A stretch of DNA of 64,000 nt from Methylomonas methanica MC09 (GTDB taxonomy: Bacteria; Pseudomonadota; Gammaproteobacteria; Methylococcales; Methylomonadaceae). The stretch's first letter is position 1. The number at the start of each line of letters is the position of its first letter. This document shows positions 24 through 9,117 of the stretch, one piece after another. The notes beneath the pieces are model-generated. The model was not told the DNA's origin, ran no database searches, and saw only the letters and a program-made list of their open reading frames with translations. The position numbers and the translations under genes were made by a program. The stretch spans positions 4,650,001 through 4,714,000 of the forward strand of contig NC_015572.1 of the NCBI RefSeq assembly GCF_000214665.1. Reading direction: 5' to 3'.

Positions 24-61
24 AAACACGCGTCCACGGAACCTCAAAATCCGTGGACGCG
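24..61 (-). terminator. Rho-independent terminator downstream of the VPLPA-CTERM gene
   Basis: A perfect 12-bp inverted repeat (29-40 pairing with 50-61, 9-nt loop) is followed on the minus strand by the U-rich run TGTTTTAT. It lies about 110 nt after the stop codon of the VPLPA-CTERM gene and would end its transcript. Confidence 0.75.
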
Positions 62-170: not shown

Positions 171-938
171 TTAAGCGGGCAAAACGCTTTTACGACGGTT
201 TGCGCCGAACAAGCTCAGCAAAGCACCACCGAACAACCAAACCGCTCCAGGCAACGGCACGGCGGCCACTTCAGTGATGCTAAGTGACAGAGGTGCCCCC
301 CCCATTGAGCCTCCACCGAGGAATGCAGTCATACCCATAGCACCAGTCAGCATAGGCCCCATCAACCCCAAAGAAGTCATGTCACCGTAGACGATTTGGT
401 CTGCAGTTGCCGATGTATCGGTTACGTTAGTGGAGTCAAACACTAAGGTAAAAAAGGCGTTGTAATTACGGCTGTTACCATCGCCCATAGTGCCGTAGGC
501 CATCGGAGTAGCTGTCACGTCATAACCGCCCCCAGTCACAACATCAGTGCTATTTTGCAAAAATGTACTGACTGTCACCAAGCTGCCGGAGGTACTGCTA
601 GCTAGTTGATTGGTCAGATTCAGTAACGGTGCTTCGTTAAGGGCATATCCACCGGGCTGGGCAAATACATTTGTCGAATAAGCGGCTCCGTTCATACCCC
701 CTGCTGCGCTACCATTCGAATCGAAAGCGGTTCCATTCCAACCAAACATGGATTCAGACAGCAAACCCGAGAAATTACTAACAGTGGAGCCGTCCCAGTC
801 GAAGCTACCATTGAACACGGTTTGTCCCTGCACGCCACCGTCTGTAAAGGCCGCAGATACATTGTAGGTAGCCGCCTGCGCCATGGATACGTTGGCAGCC
901 AATACCATGGCGGCAGCCAATTTGGATTTCAAATTCAT
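171..938 (-). CDS. VPLPA-CTERM sorting-domain surface protein
   Basis: A 255-residue secreted protein with a Sec signal peptide (about residues 1-22, ending AQA). The mature part is low-complexity, rich in Ser, Thr, Gly and Asn, and almost without Lys or Cys. The C-terminus has the three-part sorting tail of the PEP-CTERM superfamily: the motif VPLPG at about 227, a hydrophobic helix, and a basic cluster NRRK near 247. In this family the tail is recognised by an exosortase; the VPLPA variant matches XrtD, which is encoded 3 kb away. An AAGGAG Shine-Dalgarno sits 5 nt before the ATG. The mature function is unknown; a structural or adhesive matrix protein is likely. Its leader carries a GEMM-like riboswitch (1022-1110). 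Confidence 0.88.
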   Translation of the reverse strand: MNLKSKLAAAMVLAANVSMAQAATYNVSAAFTDGGVQGQTVFNGSFDWDGSTVSNFSGLLSESMFGWNGTAFDSNGSAAGGMNGAAYSTNVFAQPGGYALNEAPLLNLTNQLASSTSGSLVTVSTFLQNSTDVVTGGGYDVTATPMAYGTMGDGNSRNYNAFFTLVFDSTNVTDTSATADQIVYGDMTSLGLMGPMLTGAMGMTAFLGGGSMGGAPLSLSITEVAAVPLPGAVWLFGGALLSLFGANRRKSVLPA

Positions 939-966
939 AAAAACTCCTTAAAATAATAGATTAATG

Positions 967-1006
967 TTCGGGCGATCCAACCGACGCGCCGGGCGTTGCG
1001 CCCGAA
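967..1006 (-). promoter_or_regulatory. Putative riboswitch expression platform (mutually exclusive stems)
   Basis: On the minus strand TTCGGGCG (complement of 999-1006) can pair either with the adjacent CGCCCG across a 3-nt CAA loop, or with CGCCCGAA (complement of 967-974), giving a longer 8-bp stem followed by a moderately U-rich stretch. Two competing stems between an aptamer and a start codon are what a switching platform looks like. The assignment is inferred, not proven. Confidence 0.45.
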
Positions 1007-1021
1007 GCACCAGCTCTCCAT

Positions 1022-1110
1022 CACCCACGGAGGCGGCCCGGCTATCTGGCATCCTAACCAGACCCTAGGCTTTCCGACGCCGCCTCACGACGGCTGTGGC
1101 AAATTGGGTA
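1022..1110 (-). ncRNA. GEMM-I-type cyclic dinucleotide riboswitch aptamer
   Basis: Read on the minus strand, the parts of a GEMM-I aptamer appear in order. A closing stem pairs TACCCA with TGGGTG. A six-pair helix GCCGTC/GGCGGC is capped by the GNRA loop GTGA. Next comes CGGAAAGCCTAGGGTCT, then a second helix GTCTGG/CCAGAT, then AGCCGGGCCGCC. From memory, the Geobacter GEMM-Ib element has nearly the same strings (CGGAAAGCCTAAGGGTCT and AGCCGGGCTGCC). GEMM-I elements bind c-di-GMP, and the Ib variant binds cGAMP; I cannot settle the ligand by eye. The gene downstream encodes an exosortase substrate, which fits c-di-GMP control of matrix proteins. A covariance-model search was not possible here. 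Confidence 0.72.
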
Positions 1111-1365
1111 GTAAGGGCTTATGCCCTATCCGCGGTCTTTCATCCAACTACGGTATCCTCATCCCTGTCATTCAGCCGGTAAATGCCTTCTACCCCCCGA
1201 TTAATTAGGCGCTCTGTCCTAACGGCCACTCCATTGCATACTGCCATTCCCATTAAGCTAATAAACCTTCAGTTCATTTACGACTACCTTTAATTAAGCA
1301 TTAGTCATGCCAATTATTTGTTCAATAAAATCAATGCTAAACCAGTATCTTATAAAATAATAATA

Positions 1366-1537: not shown

Positions 1538-3940
1538 TTAACCAGCCATCTGCTTCAGCAACTCTTTGGCGCGATCGATACCGGCAAACTCATTTTGCTT
1601 GCCGTCCGATGATATTGATTTTTCAAGTGCCTGCCTGGCAGCGTTTTTGTCGCCGGCCGCGAAATAGGCTTCGCCCAGATGATAGTGAAACTCGGCATTA
1701 TTCGGCACGACAGCAACCGCTTTCTTGAAGATATCAACAGCCGCCTCTGCCTTACCGGATTTGAACAATGCCCAGCCGTAAGTATCCAGAAAGTAGGGGT
1801 TAGGCGATTCCTTGAAACGTTCCGCCAGGGTTACCGCGCGTTTGAGAGTGTCTTGAGCACCGCCAAACTCGACCAACAGATAGGACAGGTTGTTGGCCGC
1901 CTCATCATTGTCAGGGTATTTTTTCAGCAAATCGTCGTAGGCTGCGATGGCAGCCGCGTAATCCTTACTACCGTCATAATACTTAGCCAATTCCAGCATT
2001 AGTTCCGGGTTGTCTGGCGATGCCATCAAACCATTACGATATAGCATCACCACGTCCGCAGCCTTACCTTGCTGTATCAAAACTTTCGCCAATAGCTTGT
2101 AGGTAGCGATAGACTTCGGGTCATGGCTCAAAGCTTCTTGCAGGGTTTTACCCGCATCAACCCATTTCTTTTCCGCCGCGTAGGCCATACCGAGCGTGTT
2201 GTAAGCGACGGTGCTGCTCGGATTCTGTTGAATGAAGGCTTTCAGGAAAGTAAAGAACTCGCTACGCAGACCCGCCGCTTCATAGGAGCGCGCCATTGCG
2301 ACCAAAGCTTCCGCGGCACTGGGACGTTGCGCTAGAATTTCTTGGTAAATCTTGATGGCATCGGCGTGATGCCCCTGGCTTGCGGCCAGCATGCCGTCCA
2401 GCAGTTGTGCGGCAAGCACAGCCTGCGGCTGCATCTTGAGCTCATTCACCGCAGCCTCGGCGCCTGCCCAGTTCTTTTGCGCTGCGCGTGCTTGCACCAG
2501 CAATTCCAGCATAGTCGGGTTAGCAAGACTAGCTTTGAGCGATTTGCTGATTAATTCTTCCGCGCGCACAGCATCGCCACGACTAAATAAGGCCGAAGTC
2601 AATGGCGCAAGCGCCGCCAAGTTACTCGGATTAACTTCGAGCGCCTTGCGCCAGTGACTCTCGGCCACTTCAGGCTCGCCTTTCATGGCATAGGCCTGCC
2701 CTACCATGACCATGGCTTGATCTGAGTTGGGCTGATCACGTAATACGATGCGCAGATCTGAAATTACCCCATCCATATCCCGCTTGGCCAGACGCATGCC
2801 GGCACGAAACAATAAGGCGCCGCTATTGCCAGCATCGACCTTAATAACCTCTTCCGCTAGCCTTTCCGCAGTCGCTGCGTCGTTCTGTGCCCAGGCAAGT
2901 TCCGCCAGACGCACTTTTGCGGTCAAGCCATCCTTACCTGTTGGGTCAGCGTCCGCGATTTCCTTTAAAAGCGCTTCCGCATCAGAAGTGCGCTTATGTC
3001 CTATGTAGTATCCAGCCAGACGAGTCTTTAGCTTGACATCGCCGGGACTGGTCGCAATGAAATCCTTTAAGACAGCTTCAGCCTTTGCGGCGTCACGAGG
3101 CTCAATGAAATTCACCAGCATAAGCTTTAGGTCGGAGTTAGTCGGGTCGTTACCGACCCCCTCGCGAAGCACCTGTTCTGCCTGGTCCAACTTGCCAATT
3201 TGAGTCAGGACTTGAATTTGATCCTGCCGCAGATTTTTGTCATCCGGATGTGTTGCAATCAACGCTTGATAGTCAAGCACCACTTCATCGAATTTTTTTT
3301 GCTCTCTATGTATGCGGACCCTCAACAAACCCAAGCCGGAATCGTCGGGGTGCGCATCGATCCCACGATTCAATGCGGCCAACGCTTCATCGTAATGCTT
3401 ATCGGAAGCCAGAATAAACGTCTGCAACCGAATAGCATCAGCATTGATCGCATCTTTAACAAGAACTCGCTCGACTTGTCGCAAAGCCTCGGCTTTATCG
3501 CCCTTTCGAAGTAGTAATGTGGCATTGAGCAGGATAGCATTTATGTTTTCCGGATCCAGCTTATTCACAATAGCCAATTGCGCTTTAGCCTTGTCCAATT
3601 GATCGGCAAACAGTAAACCTAATTTTGCCTGCGCGTCCACATGACTGGGATTGATGGCAACCACCTCCTGTAGATTCTTTCTCATTGCCTGTAAATCCGG
3701 CTTCTTCTCATCGAGCATTGCAAGCCCATAGTAAGCCTCGGCGAACTTAGGATTGATTTGCAATGCATTTTTAAATTGCACCCGAGCGCCGTCCATGTCG
3801 CCCTTCTCAAAAAGAGCACTGCCTTCCTGAATGAATTGCCGAGGATCTTCTTCCGCGCAGGCGGTCAACAAAACAAGCAGGCAAATCACTAGCACTTTTG
3901 GTAAGCGCAAGGTTGGGGTGAAGTTAAATCTGTCTGTCAC
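1538..3940 (-). CDS. prsT: PrsT-type TPR lipoprotein of the PEP-CTERM/exosortase system
   Basis: An 800-residue lipoprotein. The signal peptide ends in the lipobox LLTAC with lipidated Cys at residue 28. Nearly all the rest is tetratricopeptide repeats, with helix pairs recurring about every 34 residues (for example ALFEKGDMDGARVQFKNAL near 40). This architecture is the PrsT family found beside exosortases and exopolysaccharide genes. TPR scaffolds of this kind usually organise polysaccharide synthesis and export in the periplasm. The exosortase gene lies 57 bp upstream on the same strand, so the two are probably co-transcribed. A longer paralogue with an internal duplication is at 10631-14074. 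Confidence 0.87.
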   Translation of the reverse strand: MTDRFNFTPTLRLPKVLVICLLVLLTACAEEDPRQFIQEGSALFEKGDMDGARVQFKNALQINPKFAEAYYGLAMLDEKKPDLQAMRKNLQEVVAINPSHVDAQAKLGLLFADQLDKAKAQLAIVNKLDPENINAILLNATLLLRKGDKAEALRQVERVLVKDAINADAIRLQTFILASDKHYDEALAALNRGIDAHPDDSGLGLLRVRIHREQKKFDEVVLDYQALIATHPDDKNLRQDQIQVLTQIGKLDQAEQVLREGVGNDPTNSDLKLMLVNFIEPRDAAKAEAVLKDFIATSPGDVKLKTRLAGYYIGHKRTSDAEALLKEIADADPTGKDGLTAKVRLAELAWAQNDAATAERLAEEVIKVDAGNSGALLFRAGMRLAKRDMDGVISDLRIVLRDQPNSDQAMVMVGQAYAMKGEPEVAESHWRKALEVNPSNLAALAPLTSALFSRGDAVRAEELISKSLKASLANPTMLELLVQARAAQKNWAGAEAAVNELKMQPQAVLAAQLLDGMLAASQGHHADAIKIYQEILAQRPSAAEALVAMARSYEAAGLRSEFFTFLKAFIQQNPSSTVAYNTLGMAYAAEKKWVDAGKTLQEALSHDPKSIATYKLLAKVLIQQGKAADVVMLYRNGLMASPDNPELMLELAKYYDGSKDYAAAIAAYDDLLKKYPDNDEAANNLSYLLVEFGGAQDTLKRAVTLAERFKESPNPYFLDTYGWALFKSGKAEAAVDIFKKAVAVVPNNAEFHYHLGEAYFAAGDKNAARQALEKSISSDGKQNEFAGIDRAKELLKQMAG

Positions 3941-3997: not shown

Positions 3998-5626
3998 TTA
4001 CTTCGGCACATAGTCGGTCAGCAAAGGCAATGCCCCAGCCAGAAAGTCGGCGATGCGTTGGTCGGCCTTTTCTTCAGGTTCTCCAGGCACCATCGGCGTC
4101 GTGAGCCTGACCAAAGCCCCATCGGTTCTGTTTTCCAGCAAGGCATCGCGAAACAAATGCCACTTGACTTGATATTCGTCTGCTATCACACGGCCACGTT
4201 CTTCAAACCAGTAATACACTAACTGACTTTGATTGCCCTTGCGGATCACCACCCGATTAAATTCAAACGGCACTTCCGTTGCAGTTTCCGGAAACGTCCG
4301 CCGATTCAAGTCTATGATTTGCCAACCACCGCCGGGCATACAGACTGTCGGCGAATGCGGCGAAGCACCTTTACGCTGCGATTCATAATACGCAACATAA
4401 AAATTGACCGGCACACCGGTTGGTTTACTAAAATCCGCAAGAAAATAGTCGGTCAAATCCAGGGTTTTTAACGCCTCCGCTTCCAGCGTCCCCGTCATAC
4501 CCTGCCATTCCCCGATTGTTTTAGGAAAAGCTGAAAAATACGTCCTTTCGGGCTTGATTTCCTCGCGCGCTTCAATCGACGACATCGCGACAGCCGTGAC
4601 GGCAATCAGCCCGGTACAAACTAACAGCGGTCTCGGTAATGGGCGAATGGCAATTTGTTCCGCTGGAACTTCAGGAATGGGTTCTAACTTCAGACCGAAA
4701 ACTTGGTTAAACGGACGCCGGTCCCGACCAACGAAAGTCAACAGCCAAATTTCCAAAAACAATATGCCGACACAGACCATAAATACGGCAAATCCCTCAA
4801 AATCGTGCAGGAAACCGCGCGCCTGTTCGCCCCCAAAATACTTCACTAAAAATCCGATCATGCCAATGCGAAAACTGTTGAGCAAAATCGCAATCGGTAT
4901 CGTGGACAGCACAATCAGTACCCGCTTCCAGGTCTCGGTGCGGTACATGTAAGCGCAAATTGCCCCAAATCCCAGCAAGGGATACAAATAAGTCAAACCG
5001 CTACACGCTTCGATGACCTCTAGCTTGAACACGCCCAAATCGATGAGATTTCCCTCTCTGAATACCGGAATGTTACAAAACCGAATCAGGTTTACTCCGA
5101 ATTTCGAGGAAAGTAACTGTAGCTTCGAGGTAATCGTCGCTTCCAGAAAATAGGGAATGGGCACCGCAAATACCAGAATACCGATCGCCGCAAACGTGAG
5201 CATTGTTCCAGCCCAACCGACCATCGCCAGGGATAACGCAAACAACAGCAAGATAAACGAATAATGAATCAACAGATAAATCGCGCTAAGTTCGCCAACG
5301 ATAAACATCAGCAACGCGGCACACGCTAAAGCCAAGGCCCCCCAGGCCGGCTGAAACGATTGCGTAATAATCTGCGGTCGCAATTGCCAAAGAAACAACA
5401 GCGTCATTAACGGTAAAAAATAGCCGTGGTTGTATTCTTCCTCCACCTCCCAACGATGCAGCAAATTCGCCAATCCGTCCCAATACGCCCACAGCATCAA
5501 CGCCAGCGCAGCCCCCAATACTAACCACGTCGAATGGCTAAAATACCAATAACAGTTAGTCTGGCGATTAGCGAATTGCCCATGGTTTTGCTGCAAGGGC
5601 GAATTTATTTCATTGTCTATTTGCAT
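3998..5626 (-). CDS. xrtD: Exosortase XrtD fused to an EpsI domain (VPLPA-CTERM specific)
   Basis: A 542-residue polytopic membrane protein. Residues about 30-300 form the exosortase domain with several transmembrane helices and the catalytic triad of the family: Cys208 in EACSG, Arg253 in NSFRIG and His274 in GFLHDFEG. After a further hydrophobic segment near 335, residues about 355-542 form an EpsI (DUF3485) domain with the typical motif PTVCMPGGGW around Cys429. The exosortase-EpsI fusion and the VPLP-tailed proteins nearby point to XrtD. It should cleave VPLPA-CTERM proteins at the inner membrane and probably transfer them to a surface acceptor. It is upstream of prsT in the same transcription direction. 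Confidence 0.9.
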   Translation of the reverse strand: MQIDNEINSPLQQNHGQFANRQTNCYWYFSHSTWLVLGAALALMLWAYWDGLANLLHRWEVEEEYNHGYFLPLMTLLFLWQLRPQIITQSFQPAWGALALACAALLMFIVGELSAIYLLIHYSFILLLFALSLAMVGWAGTMLTFAAIGILVFAVPIPYFLEATITSKLQLLSSKFGVNLIRFCNIPVFREGNLIDLGVFKLEVIEACSGLTYLYPLLGFGAICAYMYRTETWKRVLIVLSTIPIAILLNSFRIGMIGFLVKYFGGEQARGFLHDFEGFAVFMVCVGILFLEIWLLTFVGRDRRPFNQVFGLKLEPIPEVPAEQIAIRPLPRPLLVCTGLIAVTAVAMSSIEAREEIKPERTYFSAFPKTIGEWQGMTGTLEAEALKTLDLTDYFLADFSKPTGVPVNFYVAYYESQRKGASPHSPTVCMPGGGWQIIDLNRRTFPETATEVPFEFNRVVIRKGNQSQLVYYWFEERGRVIADEYQVKWHLFRDALLENRTDGALVRLTTPMVPGEPEEKADQRIADFLAGALPLLTDYVPK

Positions 5627-7849: not shown

Positions 7850-8157
7850 AAACCACTCATACCTACTTTCGCTCCATCCATTACTGTAAATGCCATTCAG
7901 ATTAACCTGGACACACCTATTTTTGTTTTCGCAGCACGGAAAGAGCCTGAAAAAACTGTGTGAAATGGCTCAGGCGACGGCAAATACCACAATTTATGTA
8001 CGCACTTCTTCCGGATATATTTTCAAAAAACCCGAATCGGCCATCAAAAGACAGTTGGCTTTAAAATTGCTTGGAATTAGATTGTTTTTGGCCTAGAAAA
8101 ACTCAGCCAGTCCGTTAAAAAACGACCATGGCGTTATTTACATATAAGGAATTAATA
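7850..8157. other. Divergent intergenic region
   Basis: 308 bp between divergent genes (GH5/PA14 leftwards, VPLPA-type protein rightwards), so it must hold both promoters. A stem GAGCC...GGCTC lies near 7945-7975. A 68-codon plus-strand reading frame (7890-8096) has no ribosome-binding site or recognisable domain and was not accepted. Confidence 0.5.
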
Positions 8158-9117
8158 ATGGAAAAGAAAAAGTACCTTATCCCGATCGCCCTAGTGGCCA
8201 TGGGATTTACAGTTAGCGCCGAGGCGACTCTGCTTGGCGTGACTCAGGCATCTCAATATCCCTATGTCAATTTCGAAAACGCTTATCTGATTTACGATCA
8301 TAACGGCGTAGACAATTCAACAGGTTTGCTGACCATTGCGTCGTTCGATTCCAGGTTGCATTCGCCGTCTGGCGCCAATGTATCCCAGTCTTATATGGGG
8401 GGCAGCGATAGTACGCCGGACGCGATGCTGACCATCGCCATCAACAAGTCTAACGGTTCGTGGAACTCTATCAGTGCTGCTGGAGTTAATCAGGTTACGA
8501 TCAATTTTGGGAATTCCGTTAGCCGAAACAACCCGAATACAAACACGCCGGGATTCAGCTGGACTGGCGATATTACAGGATTCGGCTGGTTAGAAGATAA
8601 CAGCTTCACCTCTCAGTATGAGTTCGGCACTAAATTCGACGCCACGTGGCAAATGACCGGCGACGCTTATGAAGATATGCCAAGCAATATGAGCTCGTTT
8701 ATCGACGACTATTTGACCAGCCTGATGTCTGGCTACCAAGGCGGCATTGTTATCAACAACACGGCCGGTTTTATCGACCCGGACAACGCTGTTACCAACG
8801 GTGCGAACCAAAATCCCGGCGAAGTTTCTAATCCGAAAGCTTGGCAACGCGACTGGGTATTTGGCGCCGGTGCCGCAACCGACTCCAACTTACTGGCCGC
8901 GTTAAACCCGCTTTTAGGCGGCCTAGCAACCACCAGTTGCAGGAAATTCGATTCGACTAATTGCGTAAGCTACATAGACTCCAATGTGTATGCCAACGTA
9001 TTCGTACCCATCCCGCCCGCCTTGTTATTATGGGGCGGCGCATTAGCATCGCTTTTTCCATTCGTAAGACGCATCAAAAACAACGTTGCCGCAAACGCTC
9101 TTACAAACACAGTGTAA
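8158..9117 (+). CDS. VPLPA-type (VPIPP) sorting-domain surface protein
   Basis: A 319-residue exported protein. The ATG at 8158 is preferred because AAGGA lies just upstream and it gives a clean signal peptide (MEKKK, hydrophobic stretch, cleavage near SAEA). The mature region is Asn, Ser and Gly rich and has no domain I recognise. Two Cys (near CRKF and NCVS) could form one disulfide. The C-terminus has VPIPPAL, a hydrophobic helix, and the basic anchor RRIKNN, so it is a variant exosortase substrate. Unusually, about 14 residues follow the basic cluster. It probably shares XrtD with the protein at 171-938. A second secreted-protein gene follows 241 bp downstream. Confidence 0.82.
   Translation: MEKKKYLIPIALVAMGFTVSAEATLLGVTQASQYPYVNFENAYLIYDHNGVDNSTGLLTIASFDSRLHSPSGANVSQSYMGGSDSTPDAMLTIAINKSNGSWNSISAAGVNQVTINFGNSVSRNNPNTNTPGFSWTGDITGFGWLEDNSFTSQYEFGTKFDATWQMTGDAYEDMPSNMSSFIDDYLTSLMSGYQGGIVINNTAGFIDPDNAVTNGANQNPGEVSNPKAWQRDWVFGAGAATDSNLLAALNPLLGGLATTSCRKFDSTNCVSYIDSNVYANVFVPIPPALLLWGGALASLFPFVRRIKNNVAANALTNTV

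Follow-up and report, generated by a model that had tools for sequence, protein, structure and literature searches.

A c-di-GMP-I (GEMM-I) aptamer upstream of a VPLPA-CTERM gene in Methylomonas methanica MC09 and its recurrence before exosortase-substrate genes of the genus

The closest described counterpart of the locus reported here is found in Methylophaga nitratireducenticrescens GP59, in which seven c-di-GMP riboswitches are recorded, one of them by a VPLPA-CTERM gene and three by PEP-CTERM genes (PMC12530212). The aptamer class is known, and its pairing with VPLPA/PEP-CTERM genes has already been tabulated for Methylophaga in that report, the one publication with this pairing that our literature search found, as far as the available text of the sources goes. 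No publication joining riboswitch, Methylomonas and c-di-GMP was found. Other systems share parts of the arrangement: the exosortase-substrate gene pepA of Aquincola tertiaricarbonis is RpoN-dependent (PMC9850573), and the cGAMP riboswitches (GEMM-Ib) of Geobacter have the same aptamer architecture (PMC8835794). Relative to the literature found, what is new here is a genus-wide bias, a promoter link and two candidate expression platforms.

The stretch analysed (hereafter the window) comprises 64,000 nucleotides of the M. methanica MC09 genome. Its riboswitch class and gene type are the same as in Methylophaga GP59, for which the available text of the report (PMC12530212) gives no structure, covariation, promoter or multi-genome analysis, whereas a bias in many genomes is shown here for the window's genus. 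The features on which the argument depends are the following.

1297..1312, minus strand: sigma54-type promoter site TGGCATGACTAATGCT, score 13 of 15, by GG/GC doublets at -24/-12 spacing and consensus
1029..1110, minus strand: c-di-GMP-I (GEMM-I) aptamer, RF01051, 44.6 bits, full length
1105..1110, minus strand: 5' strand of P1, UACCCA, by sequence, pairing with 1027-1022
1088-1085, minus strand: GUGA (GNRA) loop of P2, by alignment to RF01051
1022..1027, minus strand: 3' strand of P1, UGGGUG, by sequence, overlapped by the anti-P1 strand
1020..1026, minus strand: 5' strand of the candidate anti-P1 helix, GGGUGAU, 7 bp in five of five orthologous leaders
970..976, minus strand: 3' strand of the candidate anti-P1 helix, AUCGCCC, 7 bp in five of five orthologous leaders
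944..949, minus strand: Shine-Dalgarno sequence AAGGAG, by sequence
171..938, minus strand: VPLPA-CTERM (exosortase-substrate) protein, 255 aa, by ORF and sorting-tail profile
1538..3940, minus strand: PrsT-like TPR protein gene (context), TIGR02917, 305 bits, just below the cut-off of 312.2
3998..5626, minus strand: XrtD, VPLPA-CTERM-specific exosortase (context), TIGR04152, 540 bits, cut-off 400

The first-pass annotation had proposed a GEMM-I aptamer in the minus-strand leader, to be checked with the corresponding Rfam covariance model, and the aptamer is borne out. When the whole window was searched with cmscan (Rfam 15), positions 1029-1110 of the minus strand matched RF01051 with 44.6 bits against a gathering score of 35 (E 1.8e-5 for 64 kb) over model positions 1-87 of 87, that is, over its full length. 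All of the named elements are present, including, by sequence, CGGAAAGCC and a second helix with the end AGCCGGGCCGCC. The leader element is thereby confirmed, at the level of sequence and model, as a genuine c-di-GMP-I (GEMM-I) aptamer. It shares with RF01051 the helices, the specificity bases, the leader position and a full-length match over the cut-off, but differs in its docking: the Rfam consensus has GAAA with a CUAA/UAUG internal loop, whereas the window has a GUGA loop on P2 with a helical CU:AG step for docking. GUGA loops prefer CU:AG pairing as docking step, and in the aligned set GNGA loops occur with U-A 68 to 3 and GNAA loops 18 to 5 (Fisher p 0.02, uncorrected for relatedness).

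Covariation was assessed on an alignment of 97 matches (96 distinct rows), with P1 taken as part of the structure. Of all cells, 84.3% are paired, P1 included, and cells changed on both sides number 331 against 144.9 in shuffles, a double-change count that leans towards the structure, as the alignment was fitted to it; none of 500 shuffles reaches 331, and slid controls give 128 at most. The covariation expected of the proposed helices is found in the four core helices, 93.6-99.5% of whose cells pair. The closing stem has six base pairs in the window (1110-1105 with 1027-1022) and pairs in 46.6% of cells across the set. When P1 was sought in any register, the mean best helix was 4.47, with no excess over the 4.39 (sd 0.11) obtained with swapped flanks. 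On these figures a closing stem shared by the whole set is not supported, and P1 counts as weakly supported.

A more specific comparison is provided by the orthologues of the window protein. In the order, nine loci hold an orthologue that includes the N-terminus (own locus counted), and five of their leaders carry the aptamer: the window, L234 (the place of L009), L235, L236 and L243 (which overlaps L219). Comparison with related genomes, as had been suggested, gives the aptamer in four other orthologous leaders and no significant match in the remaining four, where Rfam finds none at E up to 5; one of these, L242, has a weak 12-bit match directly before the gene. The five aptamer leaders have a mean column identity of 79%, across genera. 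All ungapped 7-column helices were scanned in their alignment, and two are complete in all five, the more variable being 1026-1020 with 976-970. The other, of little variation, joins the 3' side of P2 to the aptamer's own 3' end (GAGGCGG with CCGCCUC), a pairing that may be an alternative fold of the unbound RNA.

The helix 1026-1020/976-970 uses the 3' strand of P1, and P1 and anti-P1 are therefore mutually exclusive. Counted in its 8-pair form, the anti-P1 helix has two pairs with changes on both strands, three with a change on one strand and three that are invariant; 97.5% of its cells pair, and slid controls do not exceed 45%. None of 200 trials with shuffled downstream columns produced a helix common to all five leaders, and a pairwise column shuffle matched anti-P1 in 68 of 500, a test that is weak with only five rows. 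Complementarity of tail and downstream sequence is not unusual in the window alone (0.21); 40 longer leaders taken singly average 14.61 against 13.30, six of them at 0.05 or below. When 45 nt of coding sequence were included, anti-P1 was in the lowest-energy fold of all five leaders, with P1 plus aptamer 9.6-13.5 kcal/mol higher. Folding was then repeated for the five at five lengths and two temperatures. The mean pair probability of anti-P1 was 0.92-0.99 in L235, 0.83-0.98 in L236 and 0.81-0.97 in L243, but 0 there at the longest stretch; it was 0.04-0.84 in the window and 0.02-0.80 in L234. The best fold contained anti-P1 almost throughout in L235 and L236, in most cases for L243, in 4 of 10 for L234 and in 3 of 10 for the window, where strand 976-970 lies outside the helix in several length/temperature cases and one predicted fold has a competing local hairpin, UUCGGGCG/CGCCCGAA. 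Because predicted folding varies with the stretch folded, anti-P1 was rested on comparison and not on energy. By that comparison, anti-P1 against P1 can form a candidate switch in the five orthologous leaders.

How such a switch might reach the ribosome was considered from several sides. A scan for consensus features found no intrinsic terminator in the window leader, and this expression platform was rejected. Constrained folds of the five leaders showed no consistent difference in Shine-Dalgarno exposure between the modelled states, and a prediction of ON or OFF from that exposure was likewise rejected. Short leaders of the genus (27, nonredundant) have an aptamer 3' tail that can pair with the Shine-Dalgarno region, with a complementarity of 11.52 compared with 9.99 when partners are swapped (reached in none of 500); examples of tail and target are ACCUUAUGU/ACAUGAGGU (L159), CCUCGUGU/ACAUGAGG (L099) and CCUUGUGU/ACAUAAGG (L118). 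Because a tail of this kind would mask the ribosome site except when the bound aptamer retains it, this complementarity suggests translational ON control in the short leaders. For longer leaders, the class to which the window belongs, an anti-Shine-Dalgarno tail was rejected, being not enriched in 45 leaders (9.50 against 9.62, with 328 of 500 shuffles as high). An ON direction for the window leader is our best guess, by analogy with its kin.

The gene behind the leader is as had been claimed. The ORF 171-938 starts 90 nt downstream of the aptamer, has by eye an N-terminal signal and a C-terminal VPxP, hydrophobic stretch and basic end, and terminates in VPLPGAVWLFGGALLSLFGANRRKSVLPA; a profile of 16 related tails, the window's own among them, matches its sorting tail with E 8.1e-15. 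It is absent from the 31 genome matches to TIGR03370 at E up to 1, and the NCBIfam scan of the ORF likewise gives no match to that model. The PrsT-like TPR gene and XrtD lie upstream of the aptamer leader on the same strand. Ten more ORFs between 8128 and 33152 were searched with NCBIfam; one exceeds the PrsT cut-off, with 366.4, and four have exopolysaccharide-type best matches, all below the curated cut-offs (glycosyltransferase EpsE 178.6 of 400, tyrosine kinase 162.2 of 230.65, chain-length determinant 269 of 278.85, export protein 130 of 180). The claim of control apart from the remainder of the polysaccharide locus is borne out insofar as the search of the window gave no second riboswitch at the gathering score, the other matches at that level being three tRNAs.

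Some further features of the neighbourhood may be recorded. At 8128-9117 on the plus strand, a 329-aa ORF has no NCBIfam match, and the tail profile matches it weakly, with E 0.04 at genome 4659004-4659072. Just past window position 1, a second VPxP-CTERM gene (L232, 265-957) is a tandem paralogue downstream on the same strand, and a long inverted repeat seen by eye at window 29-61 lies between it and the VPLPA gene.

Upstream, the comparison with Aquincola becomes relevant, since pepA is, like the window gene, an exosortase-substrate gene with a -24/-12 site (PMC9850573). The elements are TGGCAC and CTGCTT in pepA, and TGGCAT and ATGCTT in the window. PrsK/PrsR are reported from the Aquincola genome, and PrsR is encoded in the window's genome (679.5 bits, cut-off 502.6). 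For pepA the start site was determined, whereas the window site is a sequence match alone; the available text on pepA mentions no riboswitch, whereas the window leader has one. By eye, the sigma54-type site is kept in three of the five orthologous leaders. Of 93 nonredundant leaders, 20 have an upstream site scoring at least 13, where 0.6 would be expected and 100 shuffles give no more than 4; the reverse strand and the coding control have none. At a score of at least 12 there are 28 against 3.7 expected, but the coding control rises as well, to 12 against 5.4. Another promoter-like sequence, a sigma70-like site at 1340-1313, is of a kind found at chance frequency (3 found, 1.7 expected). It is plausible from these sequences that the window gene has two inputs, sigma54 and c-di-GMP.

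Starting from what was computed, namely the aptamer and its place, its specificity bases, conservation in orthologues, the sorting signal, the promoter-like site and the anti-P1 complementarity in five leaders, we infer ligand binding, a P1/anti-P1 switch, ON direction and an output in translation or in the transcript. Transcription would probably begin at the sigma54 promoter (1312-1297), some 350 nt ahead of the start codon. First to be made would be the aptamer, and c-di-GMP, if present, would bind it and steady P1. Without c-di-GMP, AUCGCCC (976-970) would take the 3' strand of P1, so that P1 opens and the leader is reshaped before the ribosome site. As a best guess, c-di-GMP would thus turn the VPLPA-CTERM protein on, and the protein, after export and processing by the neighbouring XrtD, would be displayed while the biofilm matrix is being built. 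That the leader is a class-I c-di-GMP riboswitch, with the ligand binding and switching predicted for it, appears to us quite probable.

Several other readings have to be weighed against it. The annotation had named c-di-GMP or cGAMP as the ligand, and the two fare differently. The bases that we take to be G20 and A47, placed through the RF01051 alignment, are G at 1100 and A at 1073 on the minus strand. G20A has been linked with cGAMP (PMC6274999), and the Geobacter riboswitches have cGAMP as ligand (PMC8835794), whereas the window has G, not A, at position 20. As specificity base 20 is G, cGAMP is unsupported, and a cGAMP riboswitch (GEMM-Ib), which requires A at that position, was rejected. 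The strongest point for a variant aptamer with another ligand, either cGAMP or that of the c-di-GMP-I-GGC class, is that RF03167 (GGC) is the best match in clan competition by E-value when 641 bases are searched. Its 39.7 bits are far below the GGC cut-off of 59, while the 44.6 bits of RF01051 exceed theirs; the GGC class needs G at position 47, where the window has A, and it too was rejected. A variant ligand is accordingly the least probable reading weighed here, and c-di-GMP is likely the ligand of the window aptamer. Across the genus, position 20 is G in 148 of 151 leaders; the three with A (L100, aptamer 1579-1501, minus; L124, 301-379, plus; L162, about 1378-1301, minus) are possible cGAMP sensors in Methylomonas, and the gene behind the L124 aptamer has no Pfam match.

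A decayed aptamer that has lost switching, with the promoter alone in control, might be read from the four of nine orthologues without a significant match, from two non-standard pairs at the base of the second helix in the window, and from the aptamer's rank, fourth of the seven in its genome. Yet the specificity bases, the tetraloop and the docking step are all kept, the outer pair of P2 has been swapped (G-C in place of the usual C-G) and not broken, and the five leaders keep their identity across genera; we regard decay as very improbable. More weight, though still on the unlikely side, goes to an OFF switch, in which the bound aptamer would lower expression and the VPLPA-CTERM protein would be made at low c-di-GMP. 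In its favour, neither direction is fixed by the analyses, one predicted fold gives strand 976-970 another local partner, and GEMM-I aptamers are described in both ON and OFF switches (PMC9262584). One conceivable route is that strand 976-970, once freed, binds the adjacent UUCGGGCG, with an effect on the ribosome site or on the stability of the transcript. Against an OFF switch, short leaders of the same genus resemble ON switches, and 10 of 11 Methylophaga riboswitch transcripts, c-di-GMP ones included, are given as higher in biofilm, a transcript by a PEP-CTERM gene being the one that is not (PMC12530212). A c-di-GMP riboswitch that acts as an ON switch remains our preferred reading.

The notion that a single secreted matrix protein is gated in this way is not supported in that form when the whole genome is considered. 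Its single contig of 5,051,681 bases gives seven RF01051 matches at E up to 0.001, all but one of them (34.8 bits) above the cut-off; a further match, at E 4.3, was discounted. Six of the seven, the 34.8-bit one included, precede VPxP-CTERM genes, for which the probability by chance is 2e-12 if 4600 genes are assumed. The seventh and strongest stands before a giant two-partner-secretion protein (PF05860, 81.2 bits), an adhesin whose gene adjoins a ShlB/FhaC-type transporter gene (PF03865, 73.5 bits). With the 16-tail profile (150 of 183 candidates scored), the genome has at least 41 sorting tails at E up to 0.01, the six included.

The bias extends beyond this genome. In Methylomonas, 30 of 37 genomes have matches, 182 altogether, and VPxP-CTERM ORFs follow 112 of the 150 leaders fetched. 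In 107 of these the tail was found by pattern in the picked ORF, at a distance of up to 130 nt in 91, 131-250 nt in 6 and farther (up to 678) in 10; five more (L094, L097, L132, L153, L155) have a VPxP-like tail clipped by the locus end or by the pattern. The rest comprise one PEP tail, 22 ORFs that are adhesin-like by their N-termini (by eye) and 15 others or unreadable ones. In the nonredundant set, VPxP follows 65 of 93 leaders. Within the family, matches are present in 103 of 201 genomes, and among 20 high-scoring ones (one per genome, all from other genera) eight lead to VPxP by pattern, one (L251) by eye and three to adhesin-like ORFs.

Aptamers also occur close together. In one locus of the M. 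methanica genome (L231 2194-11999, genome 984000-996000), two c-di-GMP-I aptamers are separated by about 4.5 kb, one preceding a VPLPG-CTERM gene and the other the giant adhesin, with the ShlB/FhaC-type transporter gene between them, and pairs like this recur in other genomes of the genus. A 3 kb locus (L093) has two matches on the minus strand, at 447-338 and 1595-1489, with 57.0 and 73.3 bits, and four of the matches listed for another genome (G029) are on one contig.

On this basis we tentatively propose, as a possibility still short of our favour, that Methylomonas and related methanotrophs have a dedicated RNA-level c-di-GMP regulon. It would comprise a subset of exosortase-sorted proteins (6 of at least 41, about a seventh) and a giant adhesin; its members would often have a sigma54-type promoter, so that both signals would be needed, and would use at least two evolved platforms, the short leaders having an anti-Shine-Dalgarno tail and the window's orthologues a distant anti-P1 helix. 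The bias in one genus makes this a testable regulon: there is a single ligand, the leaders form a defined set, and isolates of the genus are on record. If the proposal is true, the biofilm second messenger would be tied directly, by RNA, to exosortase-processed surface proteins, and the role of VPxP-CTERM proteins would be narrowed to something that is needed, alongside an adhesin, when c-di-GMP changes.
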